Positions 4,038-33,215 of a DNA stretch of 37,110 nt are shown here, in pieces (the first letter of the stretch is position 1; each line of letters opens with the position of its first letter). The notes under the pieces are model-generated. The model saw only the letters and a list, made by a program, of their open reading frames with translations. It did not search any database and had not been told where the DNA came from. Origin of the DNA: a virus; IMG/VR virus record IMGVR_UViG_3300009537_000071, positions 1 to 37,110 of that record. One strand, 5' to 3'. The translations under genes and the position numbers were made by a program.

Positions 4038-4047
4038 TTACAGAGCC

Positions 4048-5120: not shown

Positions 5121-5155
5121 CCATTTATCCATTCATCAATTTAGGAGCCAATACG

Positions 5156-5661: not shown

Positions 5662-5680
5662 CAATTTCGATTTTATCAGC

Positions 5681-6214: not shown

Positions 6215-6323
6215 ACGCAGCACGCCGAGAACGCCGACTATGCCTGGATGCAGAACTTCAACAACGGCAACCAGAACAACAACCACAAGGACAATGAGTG
6301 GCGCGCACGTGCTGTCCGCAGAT
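6215..6323 (+). repeat. DGR template repeat (TR)
   Basis: This is the only copy rich in AAC codons: eight AAC and two GAC codons between 6230 and 6295 in the frame used by the targets. All three VRs align to it without gaps, and the 36 differences fall only at its adenines. Its 5' border is ACGCAGCACG and its 3' constant segment runs from AATGAGTGG to GCAGAT (GCA for VR2). It is unusual in overlapping the start of the RT frame (ATG 6294). The same 3' segment therefore encodes WRARAVR in the targets and GAHVLSAD in the RT frame. Confidence 0.96.
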
Positions 6324-12288: not shown

Positions 12289-12298
12289 GGCGGCGCCC

Positions 12299-16233: not shown

Positions 16234-16276
16234 AGGATGGCGAGAACCGGACGACAAAACTAGAAAAAAAACGTCG
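16234..16276. repeat. 43-base repeated element (copy A)
   Basis: AGGATGGCG, six variable bases, then a 28-base exact block running from GGACGACAAAACTAG through eight A to CGTCG. The same arrangement occurs at 33171-33213. Copy A sits between the divergent lipoprotein (16325 +) and the leftward gene starting at 16182. It contains GACG/CGTC dyad ends around the A-rich tract. It may be a regulator-binding or promoter element. No intrinsic terminator stem is present. Confidence 0.75.
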
Positions 16277-16324
16277 TGCGGACTGGCGTGGTATGCTGAA
16301 AATCGACCACGGGAGGGCAAGCAG

Positions 16325-16729
16325 ATGATCAGGATTATTTCGGCGATGGCGGTGTTCACGCTGGCCGGCTGCGCCACACCGGCCGGGCAGCTGACGGATG
16401 CGGATTTTTCGTGGGAGCAGGAGACCATCGGCGCCGACCCGGCCGAGATTCACGGACGGCTATTGGCCGGGTTCCGGTCCTGCGACGTGGGGGTTGCGGA
16501 GTGTGTTGTGACCGACCGCGCGCAGCGCGTGGTGTGCGATGTTTATGCCGCCGGCGGCATCGGCATCCGCAAGTCGAACATCGTCATCGGACGGATCCGC
16601 GTGGAGGCGCTCAATGCCGACACCAGCCGCGTGCGCGCCGGCCTGCAGCCGGTGTTCCGGCGTTCGTGGGACAAACGCATCCCGAGCTGGCTGGGGTTTG
16701 CGGGCGGCAACACAGCCTGCATCGATTGA
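16325..16729 (+). CDS. Lipoprotein gene inserted against the late operon (moron-like)
   Basis: A 134-residue lipoprotein: MIRIISAMAVFTLAGCATPA has a lipobox LAGC with Cys16. The mature part is beta-rich with two further cysteines (RSCDVGVAEC) and ends NTACID. It is read rightward within a leftward late block, has its own GGGAGGG ribosome site and stops 4 bases before the convergent stop of the tail fibre gene. This is the pattern of a phage moron expressed from the prophage, often superinfection exclusion or surface modification. That role is inferred. Confidence 0.8.
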   Translation: MIRIISAMAVFTLAGCATPAGQLTDADFSWEQETIGADPAEIHGRLLAGFRSCDVGVAECVVTDRAQRVVCDVYAAGGIGIRKSNIVIGRIRVEALNADTSRVRAGLQPVFRRSWDKRIPSWLGFAGGNTACID

Positions 16730-16733
16730 ACTA

Positions 16734-17669
16734 TTAGCCGCCCTTCAATACCATGGCGTGCAACTGGCCGAAGTTAGTGGCCACGCTGCCATCTATCGTA
16801 ACACCGTAAAGTTTCAGCACCAGCGTACCGCTGCCGGTGACTTTAATGATGCCGCTCACGTTTCCCCATTCATTAATTGGCCACGGTGCATATAGAGAGG
16901 CGGCGGTATCTGCGATGATTATGGTGGCTGTTCCTGAGTCCTTGGCACACCTAATACTGCCGGGTGTTACTGCGCCGGCTGTTAAGGCTATCCCCGTGAC
17001 CATAATGCGATCGCCGGCCACCACGCTGCCGAGGTCCACGGTGGTGACCGTGTCCGGCATGGCGACTGAACCGGTGTTTCTGTTGGCCACATCGGCACGC
17101 AGCAGGAATCCAAGCGCAGGCCCATCCAGCGATCCATTCGGCACGCTGTTCAAAACGGCCAAGGCACCGAGGCCGAGCGTGGTCCGGGCGGCGGCGGCGG
17201 TGGCATCATCCAGTAATGTGCGGATATAAGTGCTTATTTTTGGCGACAACGGCGCGCGCTCGTCGGTGAGCATGGCGTTGGTGATGCTGGCGCTGGAAGT
17301 CTGCAACAACACCTGCGCCACCGCCTGAAAGCCGTCGGTTATCGCCGGCGCGGTGGGGCTGGCCGCTTCGGCGCCGGCAATCACGCTCACGGCGCCGCTG
17401 TCCACGTTCAAGACAATACGGTCGATGCGCGGGTTGGTGGTAGGCGCGGTGATGGTGGCCGTGTCCTGCGCCGCCACATGCAGCACATTACTGCCGATCG
17501 AGAGTCTCCCGGCGTCCACGCGCACCGTCATGTCCGGCGTGGCCTGTTCGTGCGCGGCGAAAGCGGCGCCTATTTCTGCCAGCACTGCAATCGCGGCGTC
17601 GATGTTGGCCGGGTACTGCGTGCCGCTCTGGCTGGGGTAGTCCGGCTGGGCAAATTGTTTAACGGTCAT
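16734..17669 (-). CDS. Tail fibre or tail-tip accessory protein
   Basis: A 311-residue protein from ATG 17669, 2 bases before the upstream stop. The N-terminal half is of the type found downstream of J-like proteins (IDAAIAVLAEIGAAFAAHEQ, DTATITAPTTNPRIDRIVLN, VDSGAVSVIAG). The middle has the RTTLGLGALAVLNSV motif common in phage fibre repeats. The C-terminal domain is beta-rich. It probably forms a virion fibre that contacts the host surface. No catalytic motif is visible. Confidence 0.75.
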   Translation of the reverse strand: MTVKQFAQPDYPSQSGTQYPANIDAAIAVLAEIGAAFAAHEQATPDMTVRVDAGRLSIGSNVLHVAAQDTATITAPTTNPRIDRIVLNVDSGAVSVIAGAEAASPTAPAITDGFQAVAQVLLQTSSASITNAMLTDERAPLSPKISTYIRTLLDDATAAAARTTLGLGALAVLNSVPNGSLDGPALGFLLRADVANRNTGSVAMPDTVTTVDLGSVVAGDRIMVTGIALTAGAVTPGSIRCAKDSGTATIIIADTAASLYAPWPINEWGNVSGIIKVTGSGTLVLKLYGVTIDGSVATNFGQLHAMVLKGG

Positions 17670-17670
17670 A

Positions 17671-20600
17671 TCAGACTCCTCGGGCTTTCCAGTTGAAGGT
17701 TTCGCCTGTGGCCACGGCCCCGGCCAGGGTGTAGAGAAACGCACGGAAGCCGGTGGTGGTTTCCAGGTCGTGCGCCGGAATCAGGGCGCTGCCGCCGGCG
17801 GCGTCCACTTCGATGTACGGCACGTTGTGGAACGGCAGCGGGAACACGATGGTGGTGCCGCCCGCGCCCATGACGCCGGTGCCGGATTGCTCGAACTCGA
17901 TCTGGTCCACCACCGGGGTGAAGGTTTGCAGAAACCCGACCTGGCCGGCGGTGTTGTTCATCACCAGCCGGTGCTTGAAGTGGCGGGCATTGCGCTGGCC
18001 GATGGACCACGGCTCGAAGCCGTCGTAGCCATTGGCCGCCATGCGGTAGTCCAGCTCGGTGTGAAAATCCAGCGCGCCGCTCTGGCCGCGCCCGAGCGCG
18101 GCAGCACTATCCGACCACACCCGCGCGTCGTCGTCGAAGCCGATATCGATCTCCGGCGCCTCGTACACCGATACCGCGTGCGGAAAGGGCACGAACTGCT
18201 CGAACAGTTCGGCCTTGCTGTGGGCGCTGGCGAGCTTGGTGCTGTCGGGGATCAGGACGCCGGTGTGGTGTTTGACAAAACCGCGCGATCGCACACCTTT
18301 AATCCAGGCAGGTCCGGTGCCAACCGATACCGCATCGTTGCCATTGCCGCTCAAATCAGTGATTGTCGCGCCTACCCCTGCATTAAAAGCATACTGAGCA
18401 ACCAGGCCAGCGCGGATGTCGTAGAACTTGGAACGCTGTAAAACCTCTGCGGCTGTCAGCGCGCGATTATAGATGCGCACTTCGCTTGCTTTTGCCCCCG
18501 CTCCAGACCCAATGGCAACATCGTAAGCTGTGTCCAGTACAATGCCGGAGCGCACAGCGCTTGCCACCTCAACACCATTCATGTAAACCCGAATAGTGGT
18601 GCCGTCATAGGTTCCTGCCATGTGGCAGTACAGGCCGACCTTCAGTGTTCCGGCAGGTGATGGGCTGCCGTATTGACCGCCACCATCACCCACACCAAAC
18701 ATTAATTGTCCGCTAGCAGTGGCGAGCAACAGCCACCCATTGTTAACCCAGTTGTTGTTAACGTAATTGTTCCAGTTGTGCAGTTCATCAATCGTGCCGC
18801 GCCACTCAACGGTGACCTCCGTGCTGCTAAGTCCGACGACCGGTGATGTCGCTGCGAGATACCCTGCACCGCCGGCGTCAAATTGCAGCGCGTAGGAATC
18901 CCAACTCGGCGCCTGCGGCGCCGACACGATGATGTCCTGAAAATTCGTCACCGTGATGTCGTCATACGCAGCATTCACCGACTGATTACCGGAGCTGTCC
19001 TGCGCCTTGATGCCGACGCGCCAGCTGCCGGGCGGCAGCTTGGTGGTGGTGAAGCTGGTGCCGGCCTCGGCCACGGTGAGCGGCTGCATGGCATCGAACA
19101 CCGCGCCGGGATTGCCGTAGCGCAGGTCGTAGATCACCACGTCCACGTCCGGCACCTCGTCCCAGTCAGCGGTGATGGTGTTGCCGTTTTGCGCGACGTT
19201 GAGGCTGGCCACGTCGGCCGGCGGCAGGTCCTTGCCGAGAATGGTGTAAGTCGTGATGGCGATGCCGGAAGCGCCGACCCGGCCGAAGTAATTGAACACC
19301 GACACCTCGATCTGCACGCGCCCGGATACCGGCCCCTGAAAATCGAACGCGCGCCGGTCGGTGGTGCCAAGGTCCTCGAACGGACCGAACCCGGAACGCA
19401 GCGAGTCCTCGTAAGCGGCGCGGATGCGCGCCCCGCCGCTGGTGCCAGTGACATCCCACGCCAGCGCGATGCGCGTGGCGAACCCGGAGCCGATACGGAT
19501 CAGCGTGTCGCTGATGGTCAGGTTGGCGATGCCCGGCGTCGCGCCGGCGCTGGCCGGCGGGGCAACGTAGGTATAGCTGTTGTTTTCGGCGGTGTAATAA
19601 TCCGGGTCCTCGTCGGTGGCGGCGATGCGCACGGCGTGCGCGCTGATCGGCTTGATGCTGGTGATTTTTACCTTTTTGCCGGGCGTCGGCTGCGGCGCGA
19701 AGAACCACAGATAATCAAGCGGCGGATGGTTGGCGTCGGCATCCGGCGCGCTCGGCAGCGGCGTGGCCAGGGTGATGGCGGACGCCTCGCCGGCCTGATA
19801 GTCCACGTCGTAGATGTCATAGCTGCCATCCGGAAAGCGCACGCCGAGATAGTGGCTGGCGGCGGGCGTAAACGGCACGGCGCGGTCGAGCACCAGCGCC
19901 GTGGTGCTGCCGGAAACCAGCCGCCCAGAATAGCCCCACTGCGTCAGGTCGTGCGACAACGTGACCACGTCGCCGTGACTCGCCACCTGCCCCTCCATGT
20001 CCGTTTCCCACGACACCACGCGCCGCCGATAGGCTTGTGCGGCGGCCAGCAGGTTGGCGGCCTTGGCGGCCATGGCCAGGTTGGTGCAGCCGAACAGCGA
20101 AACCGCCGCCTCGCGCGCCGGGGTGGTTACGCCCGGCACCGTGGCGCGCAGCGTGTCCGGCATCCAGCCGATGTCCGGGTTGATGAATTGCAGCACAATC
20201 TCATCCGCCAGGCGGCCGGTGATGTACTGCACGGCGAAGCTGTTGCGGCGGATGTTGCTCATGCCGAACACCGCCACGGACGGCTGCGCGGCGGCATCCC
20301 ATATTACGCCGAGCTTGCCGCTCGCCCACGTGGGCCGGGCGCGCCCGCAACGCGCGATGGCCATCAGCGTGTCGTTGCAGCTTTGCTGGGTGTCGATGAT
20401 GCCGTTGAAGGTCAGACTGTTGGCGTCGCAATACGCGCCCCACAGCTTGAGCGCATCGAGGTCGAGGCGTGCATCCGGCAACTGCGCACCGAACAGCGCT
20501 CGGCCGGCGGCGTCGGCCTTGCCGATGGCGAACCAGCGAAACCACCACGCCGGGTTGCCGGTGGCCTGCAGCGACCAGGCGCTGCCAGTCCACGCCTCGC

Positions 20601-22026
20601 AGCGCGCGGCGGCTACGGCATTGAACGCATCCACCTGCCCTTGCAGCTGACCGCTGGCGCGAATGCGCAGCGCCACGCGCTTCTGGCCGGTGTAGTCGGC
20701 GCCGTCCGGCTGGTAGCTGCGCAACTGCGTCCAGACCAGCTGGCTGATGTTGTAGGTATCGTTGCCGTTCGGCGTCAAGCGCCGCACGCGCACCTCGTAC
20801 TGGCCCACCGGCACGCTGCGCGAATAGGTCCGGCGCAGCGGCTTGCGCGTGGTGTTCCAGATCGGAAAACCGGACGCAGTGACGAAATAATAAAAGATCG
20901 AATGCCAGAACACGCTGCCGTCGATAAAGTTCTCCGACAACGGCAGCGACGGCCAGGACGGTTCGGTTTCGCCCGAGGTGCCGTCGGCATGGGTGTCGTA
21001 TTTGCGGTTGTTGTACACCGTCGGCACCACATAGCTGCCGGCCGGGTAGAAGGTTTCCGCCTGCCAGGCCGGCAGCGTGTATGGATCGGCGAACGGCAGC
21101 CAGGTGCCGGACCCGGCCTCGCGGTACTCGATCTCGATCCATGCCTCGTTGCCGCCGACCACGCCGTCGTACACGCCGAACAGCAGCCCGGAGATTTCCA
21201 CGCTCAGGCGCGTGCTGCCGGCGCTGCCGGTGCGCTGTATCCAGCCGGTGTCGAAATCCAGCGTGCCGCCGGCAAGGCTGTCGACGTTGCCCGGGAACAG
21301 CGTCAAGGCGCCATCCGTTCCGCTTTCCTCGATGTCCGCGCCGTCGAAGCTGGTGATCGGCGTATCGCCGATCTGATAATTCGCCAGGGTGATGTCGGAC
21401 AGGCCGAAGTTGAACACCTGATACAGATACTGGTCCTCGCCGACGAACTCGGTGTACACGCGCGCGCCGTAGTCCGGATAGATTTTATGTGTGCCCAGCA
21501 CCAGCGGCAGCGGCTCATACAGGCGCGCGCGGTTGCCGGCACCAGTCAGCGAATAGGTCGGGCTGTCCTCGTTGTCGCTCACGCCGGGAATGCGCGGCGT
21601 CGGCGGCGGCAGCAGGTGGTTGATGAGCAGCACGCCGCCGATGGTGAACAGCGCCTGCGCGGCGCTGGCACCGATACCGATATCCAGCCCGCCGATATAG
21701 GCGCCGAACTCGGGCGCGAAAATCAGCACCGCGATGGTGAGGATGGTGGCGGCCACGTTGCTGTTGCCGGTGTCGCCGCCCTGCACCGTGGCGCGCGCGG
21801 TAATCAGATCGCCGGCGCGCGGACACAGCGTGTCGAGCTCGGCGCGCGCCAGCGGGCGGTCGTTGAGCGATACCGCCAGCGGCCGGGCGAGATCCACGCC
21901 GGCGCGGCGCAGGTAGCCGGCCAGGGTTTCGCCGGCGGCGAACGGCTCGCACACCAGACGCCGGTCGGCGGCCGCCAGCAGCGGGTGCGGCGAATACACC
22001 AGGCGTGGCGCGGGCGTCAGGTCCAT
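17671..22026 (-). CDS. Tip attachment protein J-like (host specificity)
   Basis: A 1451-residue central tail tip protein. The start at 22026 is chosen because the frame to 22347 runs through the NlpC/P60 gene. It has an N-terminal J-type region with a hydrophobic patch (TILTIAVLIFAPEFGAYIGG, ALFTIGGVLLINHLL), the typical J core, an FN3-type domain about residues 940-1022 (ITADWDEVPDVDVVIYDLRY), a LamG-type jellyroll about 1040-1235 (HMAGTYDGTTIRVYMNGVEV), and a C-terminal receptor-side domain. It binds the bacterial receptor and triggers DNA release. It follows the M/L/K-type genes as in lambda. Confidence 0.88.
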   Translation of the reverse strand: MDLTPAPRLVYSPHPLLAAADRRLVCEPFAAGETLAGYLRRAGVDLARPLAVSLNDRPLARAELDTLCPRAGDLITARATVQGGDTGNSNVAATILTIAVLIFAPEFGAYIGGLDIGIGASAAQALFTIGGVLLINHLLPPPTPRIPGVSDNEDSPTYSLTGAGNRARLYEPLPLVLGTHKIYPDYGARVYTEFVGEDQYLYQVFNFGLSDITLANYQIGDTPITSFDGADIEESGTDGALTLFPGNVDSLAGGTLDFDTGWIQRTGSAGSTRLSVEISGLLFGVYDGVVGGNEAWIEIEYREAGSGTWLPFADPYTLPAWQAETFYPAGSYVVPTVYNNRKYDTHADGTSGETEPSWPSLPLSENFIDGSVFWHSIFYYFVTASGFPIWNTTRKPLRRTYSRSVPVGQYEVRVRRLTPNGNDTYNISQLVWTQLRSYQPDGADYTGQKRVALRIRASGQLQGQVDAFNAVAAARCEAWTGSAWSLQATGNPAWWFRWFAIGKADAAGRALFGAQLPDARLDLDALKLWGAYCDANSLTFNGIIDTQQSCNDTLMAIARCGRARPTWASGKLGVIWDAAAQPSVAVFGMSNIRRNSFAVQYITGRLADEIVLQFINPDIGWMPDTLRATVPGVTTPAREAAVSLFGCTNLAMAAKAANLLAAAQAYRRRVVSWETDMEGQVASHGDVVTLSHDLTQWGYSGRLVSGSTTALVLDRAVPFTPAASHYLGVRFPDGSYDIYDVDYQAGEASAITLATPLPSAPDADANHPPLDYLWFFAPQPTPGKKVKITSIKPISAHAVRIAATDEDPDYYTAENNSYTYVAPPASAGATPGIANLTISDTLIRIGSGFATRIALAWDVTGTSGGARIRAAYEDSLRSGFGPFEDLGTTDRRAFDFQGPVSGRVQIEVSVFNYFGRVGASGIAITTYTILGKDLPPADVASLNVAQNGNTITADWDEVPDVDVVIYDLRYGNPGAVFDAMQPLTVAEAGTSFTTTKLPPGSWRVGIKAQDSSGNQSVNAAYDDITVTNFQDIIVSAPQAPSWDSYALQFDAGGAGYLAATSPVVGLSSTEVTVEWRGTIDELHNWNNYVNNNWVNNGWLLLATASGQLMFGVGDGGGQYGSPSPAGTLKVGLYCHMAGTYDGTTIRVYMNGVEVASAVRSGIVLDTAYDVAIGSGAGAKASEVRIYNRALTAAEVLQRSKFYDIRAGLVAQYAFNAGVGATITDLSGNGNDAVSVGTGPAWIKGVRSRGFVKHHTGVLIPDSTKLASAHSKAELFEQFVPFPHAVSVYEAPEIDIGFDDDARVWSDSAAALGRGQSGALDFHTELDYRMAANGYDGFEPWSIGQRNARHFKHRLVMNNTAGQVGFLQTFTPVVDQIEFEQSGTGVMGAGGTTIVFPLPFHNVPYIEVDAAGGSALIPAHDLETTTGFRAFLYTLAGAVATGETFNWKARGV

Positions 22027-22394
22027 CGGTAAAACCCTTCGATGGCGAGCCCGAAGCGGCCGAGGTCGGCGAGACGGTGCAGGCAGGTTTGCCCGGCGTT
22101 GCGCACCGCGTGCAGCACATACGGCACGCCGCCGATGTCGCAATACACGCCGATGTGTTGAAGCCGGCCGCGCGCCACCATCAGCACCGCGTCGCCATCG
22201 CACGGCTGCGCCACCGGCTCGGCGTAATCGGCCTTGAGCGAGTCGATCTGCTCGGTCATCCCGCGCAGGCCGGCGGCGCGCTCGGCGGGCAACGACAGGG
22301 CGCGGTTGAATACCTGCCGCTGCACACGCTCGGCCAGCGCGGCGCAATCCGCCTCGCGGTACGGCAGGCCGACATAGGGTTCCGACCAGTGCAT
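22017..22394 (-). CDS. NlpC/P60-type tail assembly protein K-like
   Basis: A 125-residue protein starting in a TGATG overlap with the L-like gene. MHWSEPYVGLPYREADCAAL places the catalytic Cys of an NlpC/P60 cysteine peptidase early. QHIGVYCDIGG supplies the active His, and the region near YVLHAV the third position. In tail tips these act on peptidoglycan during entry or on tail maturation. It overlaps the J-like start by 10 bases. Confidence 0.75.
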   Translation of the reverse strand: MHWSEPYVGLPYREADCAALAERVQRQVFNRALSLPAERAAGLRGMTEQIDSLKADYAEPVAQPCDGDAVLMVARGRLQHIGVYCDIGGVPYVLHAVRNAGQTCLHRLADLGRFGLAIEGFYRWT

Positions 22395-22870
22395 CAGTAC
22401 AGCCCCGGGGCCACGTCCGGCCGGTAGGTGAGCGCCACCGCCGGGCGGTTGAGGAGATCCTCGAACGTCAACGTGCCACGCACGCGCAGCATGTCGATGC
22501 CGATGTTGTTGAGGTCGAGCGTCACCTCCCACTCGACCGCGTCGGGCGCGGAACGCAGCACCTGAATCATGCGCACCTGCGCGCCCTGCCCGCCGCCGGA
22601 GGCCTCCAGCCAGCCGACCATTTCCTTGCCGACGTTGTCGACCGACAGTTGCGCGCGCGGCATGCCCTCCTCCGGCTCGTCCGGCAGGGTGGCCTCGAAC
22701 GCCAGCGCCGTGAACACGTCGCCGTTGTGGGTCAGGTCCTGATTGTCGTTCACCACCCGGATCGGTGATGGCAGGTCCGGGTGGGTGATCTCCAAAAGCA
22801 GCAGCGGCGCTTCGCCTGCGCCGGTGCTGTTGATCACGCCCTGATAGGCGGCGGAATAGGTTTTAGGCAT
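22394..22870 (-). CDS. DUF1833 tail protein (L-like)
   Basis: A 158-residue protein of the DUF1833 type: LLLLEITHPDLPSPIRVVND, then FTALAFEATLPDEPEEGMPR and VSTD-like LSVDNVGKEM. It is located between the M-like gene and the NlpC/P60 gene, the position of lambda L, a tail tip protein with a beta-sandwich fold. No cysteine cluster is visible here, unlike the Fe-S form of lambda L. Confidence 0.75.
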   Translation of the reverse strand: MPKTYSAAYQGVINSTGAGEAPLLLLEITHPDLPSPIRVVNDNQDLTHNGDVFTALAFEATLPDEPEEGMPRAQLSVDNVGKEMVGWLEASGGGQGAQVRMIQVLRSAPDAVEWEVTLDLNNIGIDMLRVRGTLTFEDLLNRPAVALTYRPDVAPGLY

Positions 22871-23222
22871 CCCAGGTCTCGATGCTGAATTTGAGCACCC
22901 ACACGTCCAGCGTCCTGTTCGGTTCCTCCTCGTCGATCACGCCGCCGACGATGCGCGCCTGTTTCACGCTGTCGTCGATCGGGTCGGGCCAGTCGAACCA
23001 GGCCGCGCCGCGCGCGATGTCGTTGTTGAACCAGGCAATGAATGCCTGATAATCGGCCAGCGACCCGAAGGCGTAGCGCACCTCGCGCGCGACCATCACA
23101 CGCGAGCGCAGCATGGCCTGCTTGGGCGGGCCGGATTCCATGTCGGTGCGCAACACCGCCGGCTCGCGCCGGACCCGATACGGGCTGTGCAGCAGCTTGG
23201 CGGTGGTCGGGAAGGTGGCCAT
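22863..23222 (-). CDS. Minor tail protein M-like
   Basis: A 119-residue protein overlapping the L-like gene start by 8 bases. PYRVRREPAVLRTDMESG then QAFIAWFNNDIARGAAWFDW and VWVLKFSIETWDA have the beta-rich, aromatic pattern of small distal-tail proteins. It lies between the tape measure and L-like genes as M does in lambda. The family match is by context and general pattern. Confidence 0.65.
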   Translation of the reverse strand: MATFPTTAKLLHSPYRVRREPAVLRTDMESGPPKQAMLRSRVMVAREVRYAFGSLADYQAFIAWFNNDIARGAAWFDWPDPIDDSVKQARIVGGVIDEEEPNRTLDVWVLKFSIETWDA

Positions 23223-23228
23223 ATTGCG

Positions 23229-25409: not shown

Positions 25410-25423
25410 GTCTTTTTATGCCT

Positions 25424-26040
25424 TTACTCGGACCGCAGTTTGCGCAACAACTCGGGTATTTTCTTGGACCCGAACCCGATCGCCACCGCCTCGATCATGT
25501 CGGCGCGCGCCATGCGGTGCTGGCGATCGGTCAGCTCCCAGAAACGCCTGATCTGCCGCCAGGTGAAACGCTCGGCGAGGCTGTGCTGGTCGCGGGCGAA
25601 GCCGGCCGCGACGAGCGCGCCGATGATTTCGGCGAGGCCGACGACCCTCTCGCCAGTCCGGCGGCGACCGCTGCGCCGAACAGCAGCCGCCTGGTAAAAA
25701 AACCGCTGTTGGCCCCCCAGAACGCCATCTGCAGGGCCATGGCGTGCCGATCCGGCAGCGCCGCCACCCACTTCAGTTCGCGATCGCAACTTTTCGCCAC
25801 CATCAGCAGCCAGACTTCACGGTGTTCGCCGATCAGCGCATCCAGCGCCTCGGGCACCACCGCGCCGGGCGCGGAATCGATCAGCGTACGCAGCCCGACC
25901 AGGAATGGACGGGCCAGCGCCGCCATCTCCAGACCCTCGCGGTAGCGGAACTCGCGCACCACCAGTTTCTCGCCGTCGAGGTCGATCTGCTGATCCGGAT
26001 ACAGGATTTCCAGATCGTCGGTTTTCTCCGCGTTGCTCAT
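25424..26040 (-). CDS. Tail assembly chaperone, -1 frameshift product (GT-like)
   Basis: A composite gene. The G-like part runs from ATG 26040 (MSNAEKTDDLEILYPDQQID) to the seven-T run at 25702-25696. A -1 slip on T-TTT-TTT there joins GFF to YQAAAVRR and on through LAERFTWRQIRRFWELTDRQ to the stop at 25424. This is the conserved programmed frameshift of long-tailed phages: the GT form binds the tape measure and the G form binds tube subunits. The zero-frame continuation to 25531 is low-complexity and looks like a shadow. Confidence 0.85.
25531..26040 (-). CDS. Tail assembly chaperone, zero-frame product (G-like)
   Basis: The same start as the GT product (ATG 26040). Without frameshifting, translation continues in frame 0 to 25531, giving 169 residues. 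The first 115 residues contain the G-type domain (YREGLEMAALARPFLVGLRT). The last 54 are Ser/Pro/Ala-rich and overlap the T part of GT in another frame. An unusually long zero-frame tail could be tolerated or real; the GT frame looks more protein-like in this overlap. Confidence 0.65.
   Translation of the reverse strand: MSNAEKTDDLEILYPDQQIDLDGEKLVVREFRYREGLEMAALARPFLVGLRTLIDSAPGAVVPEALDALIGEHREVWLLMVAKSCDRELKWVAALPDRHAMALQMAFWGANSGFFTRRLLFGAAVAAGLARGSSASPKSSARSSRPASPATSTASPSVSPGGRSGVSGS
25696..25702 (-). promoter_or_regulatory. Programmed -1 ribosomal frameshift site
   Basis: A seven-T run on the minus strand, read in zero frame as GGT TTT TTT ACC. It is a T-TTT-TTT slippery heptamer. Re-pairing one base back gives GGT TTT TTT TAC CAG, which enters the T-like frame exactly where its homologous sequence begins. 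Confidence 0.8.
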
Positions 26041-26056
26041 ACGCTACCCCGTGGAT

Positions 26057-26800
26057 TTAGATGTGCACGAAACGCCCGAACTGGCCAAGGTAGGTGTCGG
26101 ACACCTTCTTGTCGTCGTACAGCACCGATCCGCTGAGGTTAAGCGCGCCGAGGTCGTCGCCGATCAGCGCCAACTCCGCCAGCGGGTCGAGCAACACGCG
26201 ATACAGCTCGACCAGTACCGGGGCATCGCCGTCGGCGGTGTTGATGCCCTCGAAGCGCAGCCAGCGCTCGGCCGGGGCGGTGTCGAACATGGCGATGTTG
26301 TCGTGCGCGCCGTAGGTGTAGTCCACCGTGAACGGCTGGGTATAGGAAGCGAGGCCGAGAATCTTGATGGTGCCGTGGTTGGCCGAGCTGATCTCGTAGT
26401 CGGTGCCGAGCACCAGCGTGGCCGGTGTGCCGGCGCTGTCCTTGACCACGACCGCCGACACCTCCGGATACTTGAGGCGCGCATAGTCGCCGACCGCCAG
26501 GGTCGGCAACGCTTCGCCGGTGACGCTGCTGCCGGCGGTGGTCACCGGCGTGCTGTACAGCGCCAGGCCGAGGTTGTTTTTCTCGAAGTCGTCCAGCACC
26601 GCATCAAGGGTCGCCTTTTTCTCGGTGGTCAGGCGCAGGTCGGTAAGGCGCTGGCCGCTGGTGGACTCCTTGTGCTCGATGGTGGAAGTGGCCATCTGCG
26701 GCTTGAAGTCGGACACGTTGCCGACGTAGCGGAACGCGCCGGCCGAGCCATCGGCGGCACGCGGCGCGATAAACAGTTTGCCCTGCCCGGAAAAGTACAT
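26057..26800 (-). CDS. Major tail tube protein
   Basis: A 247-residue protein with the beta-sandwich/loop pattern of siphophage tube proteins: MYFSGQGKLFIAPRAADGSA, FRYVGNVSDFKPQMATSTIE, HKESTSGQR, and C-terminal KVSDTYLGQFGRFVHI. Located before the G/GT chaperone and tape measure genes as expected. It polymerises as hexameric rings to form the tail tube. Confidence 0.85.
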   Translation of the reverse strand: MYFSGQGKLFIAPRAADGSAGAFRYVGNVSDFKPQMATSTIEHKESTSGQRLTDLRLTTEKKATLDAVLDDFEKNNLGLALYSTPVTTAGSSVTGEALPTLAVGDYARLKYPEVSAVVVKDSAGTPATLVLGTDYEISSANHGTIKILGLASYTQPFTVDYTYGAHDNIAMFDTAPAERWLRFEGINTADGDAPVLVELYRVLLDPLAELALIGDDLGALNLSGSVLYDDKKVSDTYLGQFGRFVHI

Positions 26801-26803
26801 GGT

Positions 26804-26977
26804 TCATTCCTCCTGTTGATGTGATTTGCGTTTCGGTTCGTTCGACTTCACGCTCGCGGCCCTGGCCACGCCCCGCTCGATCAGCCAGTTCGCGGTGTCC
26901 GGTTCCGGATTCAGTTGCGCGCCGACCGGATACTTGTGGCCGGCGTGTTCGTGTTCTTTCAGCAGTACGATTTTCAT
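26804..26977 (-). CDS. Small conserved phage protein
   Basis: A 57-residue protein, MKIVLLKEHEHAGHKYPVGA then QLNPEPDTANWLIERGVA, with a basic tail. The pattern (hydrophobic strand, H-x-G-x-x-Y-P-x-G, acidic turn, A-x-W-L-I-E-x-G-V-A) recurs in small proteins beside phage tail tube genes. An AGGAGG near its stop serves the tube gene that follows. Function unknown. Confidence 0.65.
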   Translation of the reverse strand: MKIVLLKEHEHAGHKYPVGAQLNPEPDTANWLIERGVARAASVKSNEPKRKSHQQEE

Positions 26978-26979
26978 GC

Positions 26980-27414
26980 TCAGCCCCCGGTTCCGGAAAA
27001 GATGCGGCGCACGCTAAAGCGCAGCGGAAACTCCGCCTGCCCGGCCTCGACCAGCGGATCCTCTCGGCCCACATAGCGCATCGGCCGATAGCCGGCCGGA
27101 GCCCAGCCGGCCAGCGCCGCGACGATCTTGCCGAGCAGCGCGCCCATGGCCTGATAATCGCCGGCCAGGGTGTCGGTATCCGGCACCAGCGCGGCAACCG
27201 CCACCACCAGCCAGGTTTCCTCTTCGGTCTGCGCGATGCCATTGCCGGCACTGGATACCACCGACGCACTGCCCGGCTGCAAAAAAATGCCATCCAGCAG
27301 GCCGGCGATATCCAGCGCGCCGGCGATGGTCGCGGCCGAAGCGATGGTTTTCACGTCGGTGATCTGCGCCTTGAGGCGCGCGATGATCAGCGGTTCGGCG
27401 TCCAGCAGGTTCAT
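26980..27414 (-). CDS. Tail terminator-like protein
   Basis: A 144-residue alpha/beta protein (MNLLDAEPLIIARLKAQITD, TEEETWLVVAVAALVPDTDT, then GYRPMRYVGREDPLVEAGQA, EFPLRFSVRRIF). The strand-helix order and its place between the neck proteins and the tube gene fit lambda U / Mu gp37-type tail terminators, which cap the tail tube. It overlaps the previous gene by ATGA. Confidence 0.7.
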   Translation of the reverse strand: MNLLDAEPLIIARLKAQITDVKTIASAATIAGALDIAGLLDGIFLQPGSASVVSSAGNGIAQTEEETWLVVAVAALVPDTDTLAGDYQAMGALLGKIVAALAGWAPAGYRPMRYVGREDPLVEAGQAEFPLRFSVRRIFSGTGG

Positions 27415-27587
27415 CTGCGTTTGCCTTTGGGCGACTGGTCGTCAATGCGCGCGTGCGCGTGGTCCACGTCGCGGCGCAGGTATTTAAGCTCCACCCGGAT
27501 GGCGGTGAAGGCCGCCACGCCGGTGATGACGCCGCCGACCAGGCCGGACATGACAGAGGTGAGTAGTTGCGTGAATACCTGTTCCAT
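27411..27587 (-). CDS. Small membrane-anchored protein
   Basis: A 58-residue protein, MEQVFTQLLTSVMSGLVGGV followed by ITGVAAFTAIRVELKYLRRD, then a charged C-terminus ending SPKGKRR. One membrane pass then a helical cytoplasmic tail resembles XhlA-like or phage small-membrane proteins. It is sandwiched between the DksA/TraR-type gene and the tail terminator-like gene, and its stop overlaps the latter start (ATGA). Confidence 0.6.
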   Translation of the reverse strand: MEQVFTQLLTSVMSGLVGGVITGVAAFTAIRVELKYLRRDVDHAHARIDDQSPKGKRR

Positions 27588-27599
27588 GTTCCGATTCCG

Positions 27600-27857
27600 T
27601 CAGTGGCCGCACTGCGGCCGGGTGGTGAGGCGCATTTTCAGCAGCCGTTCATGGGTGCCCTGACACTCCGTGCAGCGCACCGCCTGCGGCACGGCGGTGA
27701 GGCGGTGGCGATCGAGGCGCTCGAGGCAAACAACGCAAACGCGCTTGCCGGCAGCGTCGCACTGCGGCGTTTCAGCCGGGGTGTGCGCATGGCGATACAG
27801 CGAATCGGCGCGCTCGCGTTCCTCGATCTGCTGCGAACGGTCGGCGAAGTCCATCAC
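27600..27857 (-). CDS. DksA/TraR-type C4 zinc-finger protein
   Basis: An 85-residue protein (DFADRSQQIEERERADSLYR then RVCVVCLERLDRHRLTAVPQ and AVRCTECQG). The C-x2-C ... C-x2-C set with the acidic/helical N-terminus matches phage TraR-like members of the DksA family, which act in the secondary channel of RNA polymerase. It overlaps the Z-like gene by ATGA. In phages it may tune host transcription during the late stage. Confidence 0.78.
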   Translation of the reverse strand: MMDFADRSQQIEERERADSLYRHAHTPAETPQCDAAGKRVCVVCLERLDRHRLTAVPQAVRCTECQGTHERLLKMRLTTRPQCGH

Positions 27858-28387
27858 TTTTTGCCCCGCTGGCGCTCAAAGTTCATTTCCTGCTGGAATA
27901 CCTTCTCGACCTGATCGGCCACACCGGCCTCGACCGGCGACAATGCGGCGCGCGCGGCGCTGAGCTTGACCACCTGCTCCTCGATCGGCAGACGCGAGCG
28001 GCCGGCGCGCTTGAAAATACCGACGTGGCCGGTCGGGGTAGTGGCCACGAACGCGCCATCAAACTTGTGCCGGCCGACTTTTGCACCGAGGCGCGACTGG
28101 CGCGGCTTGCCGAGGTAGCTGGCCTTGACCGGCACGGTGCCGAACCATGCCCGGCCGGTGAGGTCCTGCCGCGAGGCGCGCACCACGGCGGCGCGCCGGC
28201 GTTTGCGCAGGGCCGAGTACGGAATGTCGTGCGTGCGGGCGATGGCGCGCAATCCCTGGCTGCGCACGCTGTTCAATACCTTGTTGATGGTGCGCACCAG
28301 CGCGCGTTGTGCCATGGCCGGCTGGGCGTTAAGCGCCGCCGCAATGGCAGCCTGCTGTTTCGGGTCAACCGTGATCGAAACGCTCAT
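27854..28387 (-). CDS. Minor tail protein Z-like
   Basis: A 177-residue basic protein (MAQRALVRTINKVLNSVRSQ, GLRAIARTHDIPYSALRKRR) with VKASYLGKPRQSRLGAKVGR and TGHVGIFKRAGRSRLPIEEQ. The last is the characteristic ending of the phage GPZ family (FxR.g.sRLPI...). These are tail completion/connector proteins. Position after the neck gene agrees. Confidence 0.82.
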   Translation of the reverse strand: MSVSITVDPKQQAAIAAALNAQPAMAQRALVRTINKVLNSVRSQGLRAIARTHDIPYSALRKRRRAAVVRASRQDLTGRAWFGTVPVKASYLGKPRQSRLGAKVGRHKFDGAFVATTPTGHVGIFKRAGRSRLPIEEQVVKLSAARAALSPVEAGVADQVEKVFQQEMNFERQRGKK

Positions 28388-28692
28388 GATGCGTATTTCC
28401 GCAAGGTGACCAGCGTCATGCCGTCATCGGACGGCTCGGCATTCACCACCGTGTAGACATTGCCGGCGCGCAATACTTCGGCACCGTTTTTGGCGCCGGT
28501 GGCGATCCATGCATCCGTGCCCAGAAGAATTTGCGGGCTCGGCCGGTTGACCGGCACCCCGCCGACCGCGGTGCCGACATACGGCTCCAGAAACGCGGCG
28601 GTGAGCGGGAAATCGGCCCCGTTCACCGCCGCGATTACCGGCTCGCCGTAGGCGGCGAGAATGCCGGACAACATGCCGGAATAGCCGATCAC
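28384..28692 (-). CDS. Head-tail joining (neck) protein
   Basis: A 102-residue beta-rich protein (GEPVIAAVNGADFPLTAAFL, VGTAVGGVPVNRPSPQILLG and GAEVLRAGNVYTVVNAEPSD, GMTLVTLRKY). The pattern of a small beta-barrel with an R-x-Y-T-V-x-x-x-x-PDD-type ending is that of gpFII-like head-tail attachment proteins. It overlaps the Z-like gene by ATGA. Confidence 0.72.
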   Translation of the reverse strand: MIGYSGMLSGILAAYGEPVIAAVNGADFPLTAAFLEPYVGTAVGGVPVNRPSPQILLGTDAWIATGAKNGAEVLRAGNVYTVVNAEPSDDGMTLVTLRKYAS

Positions 28693-29055
28693 TTAGGTCA
28701 CGGAGCCGAGACGGTTGGCCAGCTGCACCTTCATGGTAACGACGCCGGCACCGGCGGCCTCGGCCGCGATCGCCGCGTTGCTCACGTCGCCGCTCGCCGG
28801 GGTGGCGGCGTTGTCGTCGAACGCGGCGGCGGTCACGTCCCAGATCACCATTTCGCCGTGCGCGATCACCGCTGCCGATACCTTGGGCACGGTGAACACG
28901 CCGGTGAACTTCACCTCGCCGGTGGCGGTGCTGGCGATATCGACCGTGGCGACGGCGAGCTGCTGGCCGACCACGACCACCTGACCGGCGACCACGGCCG
29001 AGCCGGTGCCGTTGGTCCAGTTGCGGACTTCCCCGGGCTGTACATAGTTGTTCAT
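28693..29055 (-). CDS. DUF2190 capsid decoration (cement) protein
   Basis: A 120-residue beta-rich protein: MNNYVQPGEVRNWTNGTGSA, VVAGQVVVVGQQLAVATVDI, GEVKFTGVFTVPKVSAAVIA. The DUF2190 fold and its place just after the major capsid gene fit a capsid-stabilising protein. A terminator hairpin lies between it and the capsid gene. Confidence 0.85.
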   Translation of the reverse strand: MNNYVQPGEVRNWTNGTGSAVVAGQVVVVGQQLAVATVDIASTATGEVKFTGVFTVPKVSAAVIAHGEMVIWDVTAAAFDDNAATPASGDVSNAAIAAEAAGAGVVTMKVQLANRLGSVT

Positions 29056-29100
29056 GTTTGCGTCCTCTTGGGTTCAGTTGATTCGGTTGTTTCCCAAAAA

Positions 29101-29125
29101 CCCGGGCCGCTTAGGCCGGCCCGGG
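29101..29125 (-). terminator. Intrinsic terminator after the capsid gene
   Basis: CCCGGGCCG at 29101-29109 pairs with CGGCCCGGG at 29117-29125 around a 7-base loop. On the minus strand the stem is followed by five T and GGGAA. It sits 12 bases beyond the capsid stop and before the DUF2190 gene, so it may attenuate downstream transcription or protect the capsid mRNA end. Confidence 0.8.
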
Positions 29126-29137
29126 GATCAGGTTCGT

Positions 29138-30544
29138 TTACGCGCCCGCGTTGGTGACGGCACCACGGAAATCGAGGCCGGCGATGGCGAAGTCAAGGCG
29201 CACCTTGAGTTCCGCGCCATCCACGCCCCAGCCGTCCTTGGTTTCCAGATACGGCTCCTGCATGCCGTCGAGGAACGCGACCTCGATCACCGGCGCGTCG
29301 GCCGGATCGGCAAACAGATAGCGGCGCGTGCCGGTCAGGCGCGAGGTATCCACCACGTCGCGGAACAGGCCGCGCACGGTGTTCGGCTTCTGCAGCTTGT
29401 TGGCGGTGTCCGGGTCGTACTGCGCGTCGTTGATGCTGCGCGCCGTGCCGCCGAGGCCGATCGGCAGCAACAGCACCGCCGGGCGCAGGTCGAGGATTTC
29501 AACCCCGCCGACGCCGGTCTGGCTGGCCATCGCCACCCGGTCGGCGTCGATCGCCGCCATGGCGATGGCCGCGCCGGTGGTGATGTTGCCGTGGTCGGCA
29601 TGGAACAGCGTCTTGCTGTCGCTCACCAGCACCGGACCGAGGCCGGAATTGAGGGCCAGCAACGCGTACACATCGGTTTCGATGGTGCGCTTGGCGGAAC
29701 GCCCGGCCGACGTGGCCAAACCCATCAGGGCGCCGAGGTCGTCGTTGATCACGGCCTGACGGCTGACGCCGATCAGGTTGCCCTTGGTGGCGGCGGTGAT
29801 GGTGGCCTTTTCGCCGTCCGGCACGGTTTTCTGCTTGAACTCGCCGTGCTCGGTGAGCGCATCGAGGTTGCCGATCAGGCCGGTGCGATAGCGATTGTGG
29901 GCGCGGAAGTCGCTGACCGAGCCGATCGCACAGAAGCGCGACCAGGTGTCGGGCGCGGTGAGGTAGGCTTGCAGCAGCGTTTTGTGCATGGCATTTTCCA
30001 GCAACACCGGGAAATCGCTGGTGGTCTGGAACGCCTGCGCCACGATCTCGCGCTTGTCCATGCCGGCGGTGTTCTTGCCGGCGCGCTGCAGCGATGCCTT
30101 GGCCAGGTCGAGCAGCGACATGGAGCGGTACGGATTGCCGTTCATGTCGATCTTGAGCGCGGCGGCGTTGTTGCCGGTCAGGCGGTTGACGCCGGCACGC
30201 GCCAGGATGGAATCCACGGCGGCGGCGCGGAACTTGTCGGCCGCATCCAGCCCGGCCTCGATGCCGCCGGCGGCAATCATGCCGACCGGCTCGGCGCCCT
30301 CGCCGAGCTTGGTGAGCAGTTTGTCGCTGGCCTGCTTGGCGGTCAGCGCGGTGTCGGCCAGGCACGCCTGAAACAGTTCGGCCACGCCCTCGCGCGCCAT
30401 GAACGGCTTGAACGAGGCGGTGATCTCCACGTTGCGGGCCTGAATGCGCGCCGCTGCACGCGCCTCGGCGGCGGTTTCGATTTGCGTGACGTTGGTCGGT
30501 TCCGGATTCGGGCTGGCCGCCGGGTCTTTGATTTTGTCGGGCAT
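29138..30544 (-). CDS. Internal in-frame start: scaffold/major capsid product
   Basis: ATG 30544 (Met232 of the fusion; MPDKIKDPAASPNPEP) is preceded by GAGGAGAACACC, a better ribosome site than most in the window. Translation from here gives 468 residues containing the linker and capsid domain without the protease. Lambda C/Nu3 uses such a nested start for scaffold. Here the capsid itself is in frame, so most subunits could be made from the internal start. The inference rests on the ribosome site. Confidence 0.7.
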   Translation of the reverse strand: MPDKIKDPAASPNPEPTNVTQIETAAEARAAARIQARNVEITASFKPFMAREGVAELFQACLADTALTAKQASDKLLTKLGEGAEPVGMIAAGGIEAGLDAADKFRAAAVDSILARAGVNRLTGNNAAALKIDMNGNPYRSMSLLDLAKASLQRAGKNTAGMDKREIVAQAFQTTSDFPVLLENAMHKTLLQAYLTAPDTWSRFCAIGSVSDFRAHNRYRTGLIGNLDALTEHGEFKQKTVPDGEKATITAATKGNLIGVSRQAVINDDLGALMGLATSAGRSAKRTIETDVYALLALNSGLGPVLVSDSKTLFHADHGNITTGAAIAMAAIDADRVAMASQTGVGGVEILDLRPAVLLLPIGLGGTARSINDAQYDPDTANKLQKPNTVRGLFRDVVDTSRLTGTRRYLFADPADAPVIEVAFLDGMQEPYLETKDGWGVDGAELKVRLDFAIAGLDFRGAVTNAGA

Positions 30545-31237
30545 GGTGTTCTCCTCGTTTGGAGTGAATTGAGCGGCAACGGCCGCATAACGTGCGGCGG
30601 CTGCCGCAGGAACCTTGAAGCGGGCGAAGGCCGCCTGCAGGTAGCGGGCGGATTCATCGTCCTGTGCGGCCGTGGTAACTTCGTCCACAAAGCCGCCATC
30701 CTTGGCCTCGGACGCCGAGTAAAAATGATTGGCGCCATCGGACATGAGCTCATACATGGCCTCGACGCTCTCGCCGGTTTTGGCGGCGTAGCTGGTGGCC
30801 ATGGCCTCGGCGTATTTGTCCAGCACGTCGGCGTATTCGCGCATGTCCTTGCTGTTGCCGACCGACGCGCCCCACGGCGCGTGGATCATGAATATCGCGT
30901 TCTCGGCCATGCGCACGGTGTCGCCGGCCATGGCGATGAGCGAGGCGATGGACATCGCCACGCCGTCGATCTCCACGTCCTTTTGCAGCGGGTGGCGCTT
31001 GATGGCGTTGTAGATGGCCACGCCGTCGGACACCGAGCCGCCGTAGCTGTTAATGCGCACCGTCAGGTTCTTATCCTTGATGGCTTGCAGGTCCTTGACG
31101 AACTGCTGCGCGGTGACGGAATCGCCGAACCAGGAATCGCCGATGTCGCCGTAGATCAGAACCTCGGCGCTGTCCTCGCCCTGGGCGCGGATGGTGTACC
31201 AGGGCGTGGTGGCGGTCGGCTTTTTCGGTTGTGGCAT
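29138..31237 (-). CDS. ClpP-like prohead protease fused to major capsid protein
   Basis: A 699-residue fusion. Residues 1-225 form an S14/ClpP-like protease: VRINSYGGSV, then VAMSIASLIAMAGD with nucleophile Ser96, and MIHAPWG with His119. An acidic Ala/Gln-rich linker (about 225-300, scaffold-like) follows. Residues about 400-699 form a Mu gpT-like/HK97-fold capsid domain (FCAIGSVSDFRAHNRYRTGL, LLPIGLGGTARSINDAQYDP). A strong internal start at 30544 may give the capsid part alone. It lies directly after the portal gene. Confidence 0.88.
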   Translation of the reverse strand: MPQPKKPTATTPWYTIRAQGEDSAEVLIYGDIGDSWFGDSVTAQQFVKDLQAIKDKNLTVRINSYGGSVSDGVAIYNAIKRHPLQKDVEIDGVAMSIASLIAMAGDTVRMAENAIFMIHAPWGASVGNSKDMREYADVLDKYAEAMATSYAAKTGESVEAMYELMSDGANHFYSASEAKDGGFVDEVTTAAQDDESARYLQAAFARFKVPAAAAARYAAVAAQFTPNEENTMPDKIKDPAASPNPEPTNVTQIETAAEARAAARIQARNVEITASFKPFMAREGVAELFQACLADTALTAKQASDKLLTKLGEGAEPVGMIAAGGIEAGLDAADKFRAAAVDSILARAGVNRLTGNNAAALKIDMNGNPYRSMSLLDLAKASLQRAGKNTAGMDKREIVAQAFQTTSDFPVLLENAMHKTLLQAYLTAPDTWSRFCAIGSVSDFRAHNRYRTGLIGNLDALTEHGEFKQKTVPDGEKATITAATKGNLIGVSRQAVINDDLGALMGLATSAGRSAKRTIETDVYALLALNSGLGPVLVSDSKTLFHADHGNITTGAAIAMAAIDADRVAMASQTGVGGVEILDLRPAVLLLPIGLGGTARSINDAQYDPDTANKLQKPNTVRGLFRDVVDTSRLTGTRRYLFADPADAPVIEVAFLDGMQEPYLETKDGWGVDGAELKVRLDFAIAGLDFRGAVTNAGA

Positions 31238-31249
31238 GGCGTTCTCCTG

Positions 31250-32773
31250 TTAGTCGCGCGCGGCGGCGATGATGGCGGCCGTGCGCGCGGTGTTGTGGGC
31301 CGAGCCCGGGGCGTTGTTGAGTTCCACCGGGTCCACTTTGCTTTCCGGCAGCTTGGTGTTGCGCAGCTTCTGCCAGTTGGCTTCCTGCTCCAGCACGTCG
31401 CGCGGGTTGAGGCCGCGGCGGCGGATGATCTCCGGTCCGCTGGCATAGCCGGCGGCTTCCAGCTCCTGCCATGCCAGCGCTTCTTTCAGCGGATCGATCC
31501 ACGGCATTTGCGGCGGCACCAGGATGGCGTCGTCGAGCGTGCGCGGATCGAGGTCGGCCGGCAGCTTGAGCAGGCTGGCACCGATCGCGGCCTGCAGAAA
31601 ATCCGTGTACACCGGCATCACCGCACGGCCGCCGAACTCGGCGGACAGCACGCCATACGCGCCCCAGCTTTCCACCAGCTCCTGGCGCTGCGCGCTGTAG
31701 GTGCCGTCGTAGTTGCGCGACAGGCTGGAATAGCTGATCTCCAGCCCGCCGGAGGCGGCGCGCAGCTGGCCGCTGCGGAACGGTTCGAGGCTGGTACTGG
31801 GGCGGGTGGTGTTGATGGTGCCGATGTCCTCGCCGGGGCGCAGGTCGTCGAACACCATGCCGGGGCGGAACTTCATGTCGCGCGGTATTCTCTCGCCGGT
31901 GGTTTCGTCGAATGCGTCGCTGGCGCTGTAGCTGTCCGGCACGCCCTTCTTGATGTACGCCGCCATGCTGGCCGCCACCTTGGCGGCGATGCGCTCGCTT
32001 TCCTCGTAGTCCTTGATGTCGTCGAGGCGCGTGAGCACCGACGCGAAAATGGAAACCCCGCGCGCCTGCAGCATGCGGTCGGCCAGCTTCACGTGCAGCA
32101 TGCGCTCGGCCGGAATGCGCTTGAGATCGGCAATGGTGATGAGCGGCGACATCTTGCTGGGGTCGGTCTTGTGCAGCCAGAACGCGGTCGGGCGGCCCCA
32201 GCCGTTGCGCTCCACGCCCTGCACGATGCTGCGGCGCTGGTCGTAGTAACCGAGCGGCACCGAATCGGACTCGAACATTTCCAGCGAGTACGGCACGTCG
32301 GTGCCGTGGTTGAGGCCGGTGACCTTGCCGAGCAGCCGCTGCGCGAAGGTGTCTCCGTCGCGGATCCACGCGCGGCACAGCATGCGCTGCATCGACGGCC
32401 AGTCGTGCTGCCAGGTGACCTCCGGGCGCTTCGACCAGTCGCGGTACAGGATGAGAATCTCGCGCGCCAGGGCTTCGTGGATCTCGCCGGTGAGGGTGCG
32501 CGGTTGCGGCTCCAGGCCGATGCCGTGCGGGCCGACGATGTTCTGCACCAGGCGGCTGATGGCGCCGCGCGCGATGTCGTGATTGCGTTCCAGATAGCGC
32601 GCGTGCGCGCGCAACTTGGCGGCGTTGAATGCCGTGACCTGATCGCCGGTGCCGTCCTTGGTGCGGTTGCGGCGCAAGCGCGAGGTTTTGGTAGCGTCGT
32701 AGTAGGCGAGCAGGCCGCGCTGGCGCGCGCGGTGCGCCGCGCCGGTCGGGTCGAGGCGATCCAGCAGGCCCAT
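31250..32773 (-). CDS. Portal protein (lambda gpB family)
   Basis: A 507-residue protein from ATG 32773 (TGATG overlap with the previous gene). MGLLDRLDPTGAAHRARQRG, HARYLERNHDIARGAISRLV, QNIVGPHGIGL and the DKTDPSKMSPL-like segment fit the lambda-type portal family. It forms the dodecameric ring at the head vertex through which DNA is packaged and ejected. Length is normal for the family. Confidence 0.92.
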   Translation of the reverse strand: MGLLDRLDPTGAAHRARQRGLLAYYDATKTSRLRRNRTKDGTGDQVTAFNAAKLRAHARYLERNHDIARGAISRLVQNIVGPHGIGLEPQPRTLTGEIHEALAREILILYRDWSKRPEVTWQHDWPSMQRMLCRAWIRDGDTFAQRLLGKVTGLNHGTDVPYSLEMFESDSVPLGYYDQRRSIVQGVERNGWGRPTAFWLHKTDPSKMSPLITIADLKRIPAERMLHVKLADRMLQARGVSIFASVLTRLDDIKDYEESERIAAKVAASMAAYIKKGVPDSYSASDAFDETTGERIPRDMKFRPGMVFDDLRPGEDIGTINTTRPSTSLEPFRSGQLRAASGGLEISYSSLSRNYDGTYSAQRQELVESWGAYGVLSAEFGGRAVMPVYTDFLQAAIGASLLKLPADLDPRTLDDAILVPPQMPWIDPLKEALAWQELEAAGYASGPEIIRRRGLNPRDVLEQEANWQKLRNTKLPESKVDPVELNNAPGSAHNTARTAAIIAAARD

Positions 32774-32961
32774 CAGCGCCGCACCGCCAGCCAGAACAGC
32801 ACGGCGCCGACCACCATCCACGCGGCCGGCGGGTAAACCTGCCAGATGCCGTAGAACATGCCGGACAGGCCGGAAAGCATGAACAGGTCGCGCACGTCGA
32901 ACGCGTCGCGCAGCAGGCGCAGCGCCCGTTCCGTGCCCTGCTTGAGAGTCTGGATGTTCAT
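32773..32961 (-). CDS. Small membrane protein between gpW and portal
   Basis: A 62-residue protein with an amphipathic start (MNIQTLKQGTERALRLLRDA) and one or two membrane segments (FMLSGLSGMFYGIWQVYPPA, WMVVGAVLFWLAVRR). It overlaps the gpW stop (ATGA) and the portal start (TGATG). The position is conserved in some phages, but the role is not known. Confidence 0.65.
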   Translation of the reverse strand: MNIQTLKQGTERALRLLRDAFDVRDLFMLSGLSGMFYGIWQVYPPAAWMVVGAVLFWLAVRR

Positions 32962-33164
32962 TCCGACGTGAAGTTCGCGAGCTGGTGGCGCGCGCCGGGC
33001 GCGGTGCCGGCGGCGATGGCCATCTGTCCCTTGGCGTAGCTCAGCGCCTTGGCGAGTTCATCCACACTGCGGTAGGTGACCTCGCGGTCGGCCAGCTTGA
33101 CCTTGAGCTCGCCGCGCGTCAGCGCGGCCTCCAGAGCGTCGATATTGGTTTGGGATATCGCCAT
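32958..33164 (-). CDS. gpW-like head-tail joining protein
   Basis: A 68-residue protein, MAISQTNIDALEAALTRGEL, then KVKLADREVTYRSVDELAKA, matching gpW (two helices and a beta hairpin with a TYRS turn). The gpW ring joins head and tail after packaging. ATG 33164 is preferred to 33194, which would add residues read from the repeated 43-base element. No Shine-Dalgarno is visible ahead of 33164. Confidence 0.88.
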   Translation of the reverse strand: MAISQTNIDALEAALTRGELKVKLADREVTYRSVDELAKALSYAKGQMAIAAGTAPGARHQLANFTSE

Positions 33165-33170
33165 GCTGGA

Positions 33171-33213
33171 AGGATGGCGGGGGCGGGACGACAAAACTAG
33201 AAAAAAAACGTCG
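33171..33213. repeat. 43-base repeated element (copy B)
   Basis: The same arrangement as 16234-16276: AGGATGGCG, six bases, then 28 identical bases through CGTCG. It fills the gap between the Mor-like gene stop (33216) and the gpW start (33164). It directly precedes the leftward head gene block. See the finding for possible meaning. Confidence 0.75.
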
Positions 33214-33215
33214 GC

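Follow-up and report, generated by a model that had tools for sequence, protein, structure and literature searches.

Introduction

Phage Mu, a transposable myophage that carries C in its middle operon, provides the closest described precedents for the arrangement reported here. C binds dyads at four late promoters (PMC4287176), and the promoters Plys, PI, PP and Pmom are C-activated, each with an upstream dyad and a non-consensus −10 (PMC4287176, PMC4461284); at the promoter Pm, Mor takes over the −35 contact and a −10 hexamer is present (PMC4390567). Here we describe a 43-base element that occurs twice, at 16234-16276 (copy A) and 33171-33213 (copy B), in IMGVR_UViG_3300009537_000071, a virus record of 37,110 bases that was analysed in its entirety (the window) and whose gene content is that of a lambda-like temperate phage. 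We propose that each copy, read on the minus strand, is very probably a late promoter without a −35 box, switched on by a Mor-like protein acting at a putative dyad site.

By analogy, the proposed mechanism is that of Mu Mor and C. As at the C promoters, one Mor/C-type activator (putative here) would serve several late promoters, and, as at Pm, a dyad in place of the −35 is combined with a −10 hexamer. The Pm site is 16 bp long with 5-bp arms and is centred at −43.5, whereas here the arms reach up to 10 bp around a 7-nucleotide (nt) spacer and the centre would lie near −37. Several departures from the Mu scheme are also apparent: the genome is lambda-like and bears an integrase, the activator gene lies between the genes for the terminase large subunit (TerL) and gpW, the arms appear private to each phage, gpW appears leaderless, and the operator appears to be reused before the capsid protease or another late block. 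Pseudomonas phages F10 and MD8 share the order terminase, gpW, portal, protease. Neither has an annotated Mor-like gene at this place, and in both the TerL gene overlaps gpW without a gap. In the isolate Stenotrophomonas phage S1 (L182), a Mor-like protein of 106 amino acids (aa) is encoded between TerL and gpW and the gap holds a long-armed dyad; unlike in the window, a single dyad copy was found, no clear −10 spacing is evident and Pfam Mor is not matched. The S1 product concerned, gp5 (5357-5677), is annotated as "putative peptidase a" and looks Mor-like (phrog_836, E 1.2e-4). A literature search whose coverage left out most subscription papers found no account of such an arrangement.

Results

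An earlier note on this DNA had described the two copies, and its coordinates, equal six-base spacer, 28 identical bases and A8 tract all proved exact on re-alignment. The copies align over 9 identical bases, the 6-base spacer with 4 differences, and the 28 identical bases that include A8, and the sequence flanking both diverges immediately. The wider search that the note had called for returned exactly two matches at up to 3 mismatches in the whole record and none in 100 shuffles; the repeat is far above chance expectation. Confinement of all 4 differences to the spacer has p ~1e-4 if they fell at random over the 43 positions (15/123,410, hand calculation). An 18-base core of the element has no exact match among viral contigs, and the exact 28 bases appear, as far as seen, to be private to this phage.

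Such a repeat might be a functionless scar of recent duplication or gene conversion, left by insertion of a lipoprotein moron, as the earlier note had offered in the form of recombination. Identity of 28 bases across 17 kb and the lipoprotein-like open reading frame (ORF) adjoining copy A would fit this history. However, the lipoprotein gene has a copy beside it on one side only, the differences spare both elements that flank the spacer, and relatives carry paired sites of different sequence at comparable late positions, so that we consider a scar very improbable. The parts of the two copies and the genes next to them or in the blocks they would drive are as follows.

33216..33545, minus strand: putative late activator gene of Mor-like type, located between TerL and gpW and encoding 109 aa (phrog_532, E 4e-6)
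33188..33214, minus strand: candidate activator-site dyad of copy B, 10-7-10 register, CCGACGTTTT TTTTCTA GTTTTGTCGT; outer arms CGAC/GTCG symmetric; register as in relatives
33171..33176, minus strand: −10-like hexamer CATCCT of copy B, 11 nt past the dyad, position as in relatives
33164, minus strand: predicted transcription start, the A of the gpW ATG, deduced from the −10 position (6 nt)
32958..33164, minus strand: gpW-type head-tail adaptor, first gene of the structural operon (phrog_2545, E 9.4e-18)
16325..16729, plus strand: lipoprotein-like ORF adjoining copy A, probable moron; N-terminus judged by eye, no family match
16251..16277, minus strand: candidate activator-site dyad of copy A, ACGACGTTTT TTTTCTA GTTTTGTCGT; 26/27 identical to copy B, 5-bp outer arms ACGAC/GTCGT
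16234..16239, minus strand: −10-like hexamer CATCCT of copy A, 11 nt past the dyad
15664..16182, minus strand: first gene after copy A, 172 aa, without a family match; Shine-Dalgarno AAGGA ahead of its ATG, predicted 45-nt leader
11740..12366, minus strand: endolysin, part of the block predicted to be driven by copy A (phrog_435, E 1.6e-16)

Copy B fills 43 of the ~50 bases that separate the Mor-like stop codon from the gpW ATG. The adjacency of the Mor-like gene that had been pointed out earlier stands, although the distance is 2 bases and not 3, the last base of the stop codon being 33216. Read on the minus strand, copy B consists of a dyad with the centre TTTTCTA, which overlaps the −35 position, followed by 11 nt, CATCCT, 6 nt and the gpW ATG; no Shine-Dalgarno sequence is found there ahead of gpW. 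A start 7 nt past the hexamer would put +1 on the A of this ATG, making a leaderless gpW mRNA likely, and would place the dyad centre at about −37 rather than at the −43.5 of Mu Pm. Copy A has the same dyad and CATCCT at the same 11 nt, and then a leader of ~45 nt in which AAGGA precedes the ATG at 16182; a scan for consensus promoters gave nothing at this site. Symmetry alone is not evidence, because an unrestricted scan of the window for symmetric 27-mers yields dozens of chance matches. A search of the window for further matches found no third site ahead of the protease/capsid gene at 29138..31237.

Relatives were gathered with the portal protein, which gave 80 viral loci, and with a portal alignment, which gave 58 loci in bacterial genomes, many of them in Variovorax, Acidovorax, Comamonas, Duganella, Rhizobacter, Cupriavidus, Delftia and Marinobacter. 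Counting the window, 84 of the 139 loci from viral contigs and proteobacterial prophages have a Mor-like gene whose end lies at most 1400 nt upstream of gpW. In the nearest relative, L003 (portal 93% identical), the same gap holds a different and perfect 10-bp inverted repeat, so that between the two phages the position of the dyad is kept but its letters are not. A 10-7-10 dyad that is symmetric in at least 7 of 10 pairs and has its end 22-28 nt ahead of the gpW ATG is present in 24 of 64 non-redundant upstream regions, compared with a mean of 2.0 and a maximum of 6 in 300 dinucleotide shuffles; ten other registers gave counts of 0-5, and the interior of gpW gave 2/64. In the same regions the dyad centre tends towards nnCCCTA and an A-rich stretch lies ahead of the dyad. 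The combination of a dyad in the −35's place with a downstream −10 hexamer is thus present in relatives, and the window copies fit its register with weak symmetry. The earlier note had held that absence of conservation in relatives would tell against a functional site; the architecture proved to be conserved, whereas the exact 28 bases appear, as far as seen, to be confined to this phage. A test in which the arms were shuffled is not relied on, being partly circular because its sites were picked for symmetry.

Strong hairpins would form at the sites of L003 (fold z −4.8) and L010, as might be expected if the element worked as RNA, whether as a terminator, a processing site or a structured leader between Mor and gpW. 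The window copy folds weakly (z −0.95), however, the stem has no U-tract after it, and the spacer and the distances to the −10 hexamer and the ATG are conserved, which RNA folding would not need; we judge an RNA element to be exceedingly improbable.

From these loci 45 sites were curated by eye, the others being redundant or without a clear dyad. The distance from dyad to gpW ATG is 23-27 nt in 31 of the 45, and in 25 of these 31 the hexamer at +11 reads nA...T, with A in the second and T in the sixth place. Shine-Dalgarno-like 4-mers occur at 2/31 of these short-distance sites versus 6/14 sites with longer leaders (Fisher p 0.007). Together, the scarcity of such 4-mers and the hexamer pattern argue, by comparison, that the start is leaderless.

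Second copies are also a feature of the relatives. A phage's own site recurs at up to 5 mismatches in 21 of the 45 curated phages, while ten rounds of shuffled sites each gave 0, as did neighbouring 27-mers, and foreign sites gave 0/1374; the remaining 24 phages are no evidence of absence, because many records are fragments. In most phages examined, with the exception of L159, the second copy precedes the gene for the head maturation protease, which was picked out by eye on account of the IYGDIG start also present in L003 and the window. Many of these phages carry a stem-loop between second site and protease ATG, at the predicted extreme 5' end of the mRNA and without an obvious Shine-Dalgarno sequence; of the five that were folded (L125, L129, L131, L143 and L152), three have z below −4 compared with shuffles and the others −3.4 and −1.9.

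Arm sequences vary from phage to phage, and in the 45 phages arm distance correlates with the distance between Mor-like proteins at 0.59 and with portal distance at 0.40. With portal distance fixed, the partial Mantel correlation of arms with Mor is r=0.48, and none of 5000 permutations was as high. The arms thus seem to track the Mor protein beyond portal kinship, although the strength of this association may be overstated.

This co-variation bears on whether the dyads might instead be operators for another DNA-binding protein, such as a repressor, with the Mor-like gene a neighbour by coincidence. A protein centred near −37 could block polymerase too, and the fragments L054 and L074 have sites without a detected Mor. 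Against this, the arms follow the Mor protein as described, the promoters have no recognisable −35, as dependence on an activator predicts, and F10 and MD8, which lack Mor, have no gap between TerL and gpW. We therefore regard operators for a different protein as quite unlikely, and favour Mor-like activation at the dyads.

Several comparisons bear on the identity of the Mor-like protein itself. The true gene is probably the 109-aa frame at 33216-33545, rather than the full 233-aa ORF. Its product scores 17.8 bits with Pfam Mor (PF08765), under the cut-off of 24.9, and is for this reason named "Mor-like". As a query, the window ORF found no close relative among viral contigs and only two weak matches among isolate phages. 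A profile of the family (A2), on the other hand, matches Mu Mor (1rr7) at 2.6e-8 and Mu C (9l0x) at 0.0028, and PF08765 is matched at E<=0.01 by 17 of 20 aligned family members, with L065 scoring 50.8 bits. In a Foldseek search of the PDB with a predicted model (predicted local distance difference test, pLDDT, 86), Mu C and Mor rank 1-4, but weakly (E 0.17-0.53, template modelling (TM) score ~0.35). By profile, then, the window protein appears to be a distant Mor/C member. In several phages, among them L065, L069, L079 and their relatives, the 3' end of the Mor-like gene lies within reach of its own operator and the two overlap, so that the C-terminus of the protein is encoded by its own putative binding site.

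The remaining minus-strand genes of the window include a DNA methylase, the terminase, portal and protease/capsid genes listed below, tail genes, tail fibre J, and a small block besides the endolysin; the left part carries an integrase and a reverse-transcriptase element, both on the plus strand.

34172..36250, minus strand: terminase large subunit (Pfam GpA, phrog_15)
31250..32821, minus strand: portal protein (Pfam Phage_portal_2)
29138..31237, minus strand: head maturation protease/capsid (phrog_133)

The relative search gave no relatives of the 172-aa first gene after copy A. The second, of 157 aa (15191-15664), belongs to phrog_26662, function unassigned, and is 68-87% identical to its counterparts among the best 80 of 150 viral loci; it appears to be a very conserved and widely exchanged late gene. 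In 79 of these 80 loci the 6-kb flanks hold no Mor match, and up to 1.3 kb upstream in the 20 of 80 checked there was one weak dyad with the right centre and in none the CTAGTTTTG core of the window. The 157-aa module is therefore not itself tied to the Mor-like system.

Further features were noted in the window. A diversity-generating retroelement spans 1790-7735, with an Rfam RT-15 RNA at 6021-6217, a reverse transcriptase ORF at 5964-7448, a repeat resembling a template at ~6215-6320, and variable copies of it at three places (2180, 4968 and 5501) in three paralogous targets (phrog_4245); template A is the commonest mismatched base (16/35, 21/40 and 19/39). A strong hairpin with a T run behind it, resembling an intrinsic terminator, lies at 29100-29126 on the minus strand, between the capsid/protease and decoration genes and inside the late operon. 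Repeats at 60-base spacing (12646-13238) occur inside ORF 12630-13937, a repetitive virion-protein-like gene, and a tRNA-Met gene at the left end (724-798) possibly marks the integration-site side.

Discussion

The conserved register relative to gpW, the −10-like hexamer, the dyad symmetry, the second copies within a phage and the co-variation with the Mor-like protein all back the suggestion of the earlier note that the element is a late promoter or activator site. From these observations we infer binding, activation, start sites and leaderless translation as follows. The Mor-like protein, encoded just upstream of copy B and probably dimeric, would bind the dyad that stands in for the −35, and, once bound, would recruit the polymerase of the host to the −10 hexamer, which lies 11 nt downstream. 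For copy B this would mean a transcription start at the gpW ATG or no more than a few bases from it, and a leaderless mRNA of the gpW-portal-capsid operon; at copy A transcription would begin near 16227, ~45 nt ahead of a gene that has a ribosome-binding site of its own, and would drive the block that contains the endolysin. With one activator for both copies, both late blocks would thus come on together once the activator appears.

A number of points weigh against this proposal. The window's own dyad is weak and its arms are short, copy B being symmetric in 4 of 10 pairs in register, and its Mor-like protein taken alone stays below the Pfam cut-off. The inferred centre is ~6 bp nearer the start than that of Mu Pm, and the window's second site precedes the endolysin-containing block, unlike that of most relatives. 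Among the relatives, 40 of the 64 upstream regions fall short of 7/10 pairs in the fixed register, the set of 45 sites was curated by eye, and the Mantel result may be inflated by relatedness among the phages, as plain permutation of related sequences can overstate significance. Furthermore, dyads of at least 8/10 pairs occur anywhere in 100 nt in 11 of the 25 regions without Mor within 1.4 kb (mean in shuffles, 2.6), and the clear dyads of L054 and L074 stand in fragments with no Mor match; nine of those 25 regions come from viral records, six of which carry a Mor match elsewhere. Presence of an adjacent Mor did not cleanly separate loci with a site from those without.

In a broader sense, the window may represent a widespread class of lambda-like temperate phages of proteobacteria with Mor/C-type late control and private lock-and-key operators, a generalisation that could equally well prove right or wrong. 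In such phages the arms would change with the activator, so that co-resident prophages are not cross-activated, operators would be copied to enlist modules such as the capsid protease or, as here, a lysis block, and the structural mRNA would be leaderless. Should this be true, a simple sequence rule would be available for spotting late promoters and late regulons in many uncharacterised prophages of environmental proteobacteria. Both the predicted leaderless start of gpW and the 5'-hairpin leaders ahead of the capsid protease lend themselves to direct testing. Matched yet private arms would provide a natural data set for the DNA-recognition code of Mor/C proteins, and Mor/C control would reach beyond the Mu-like phages.

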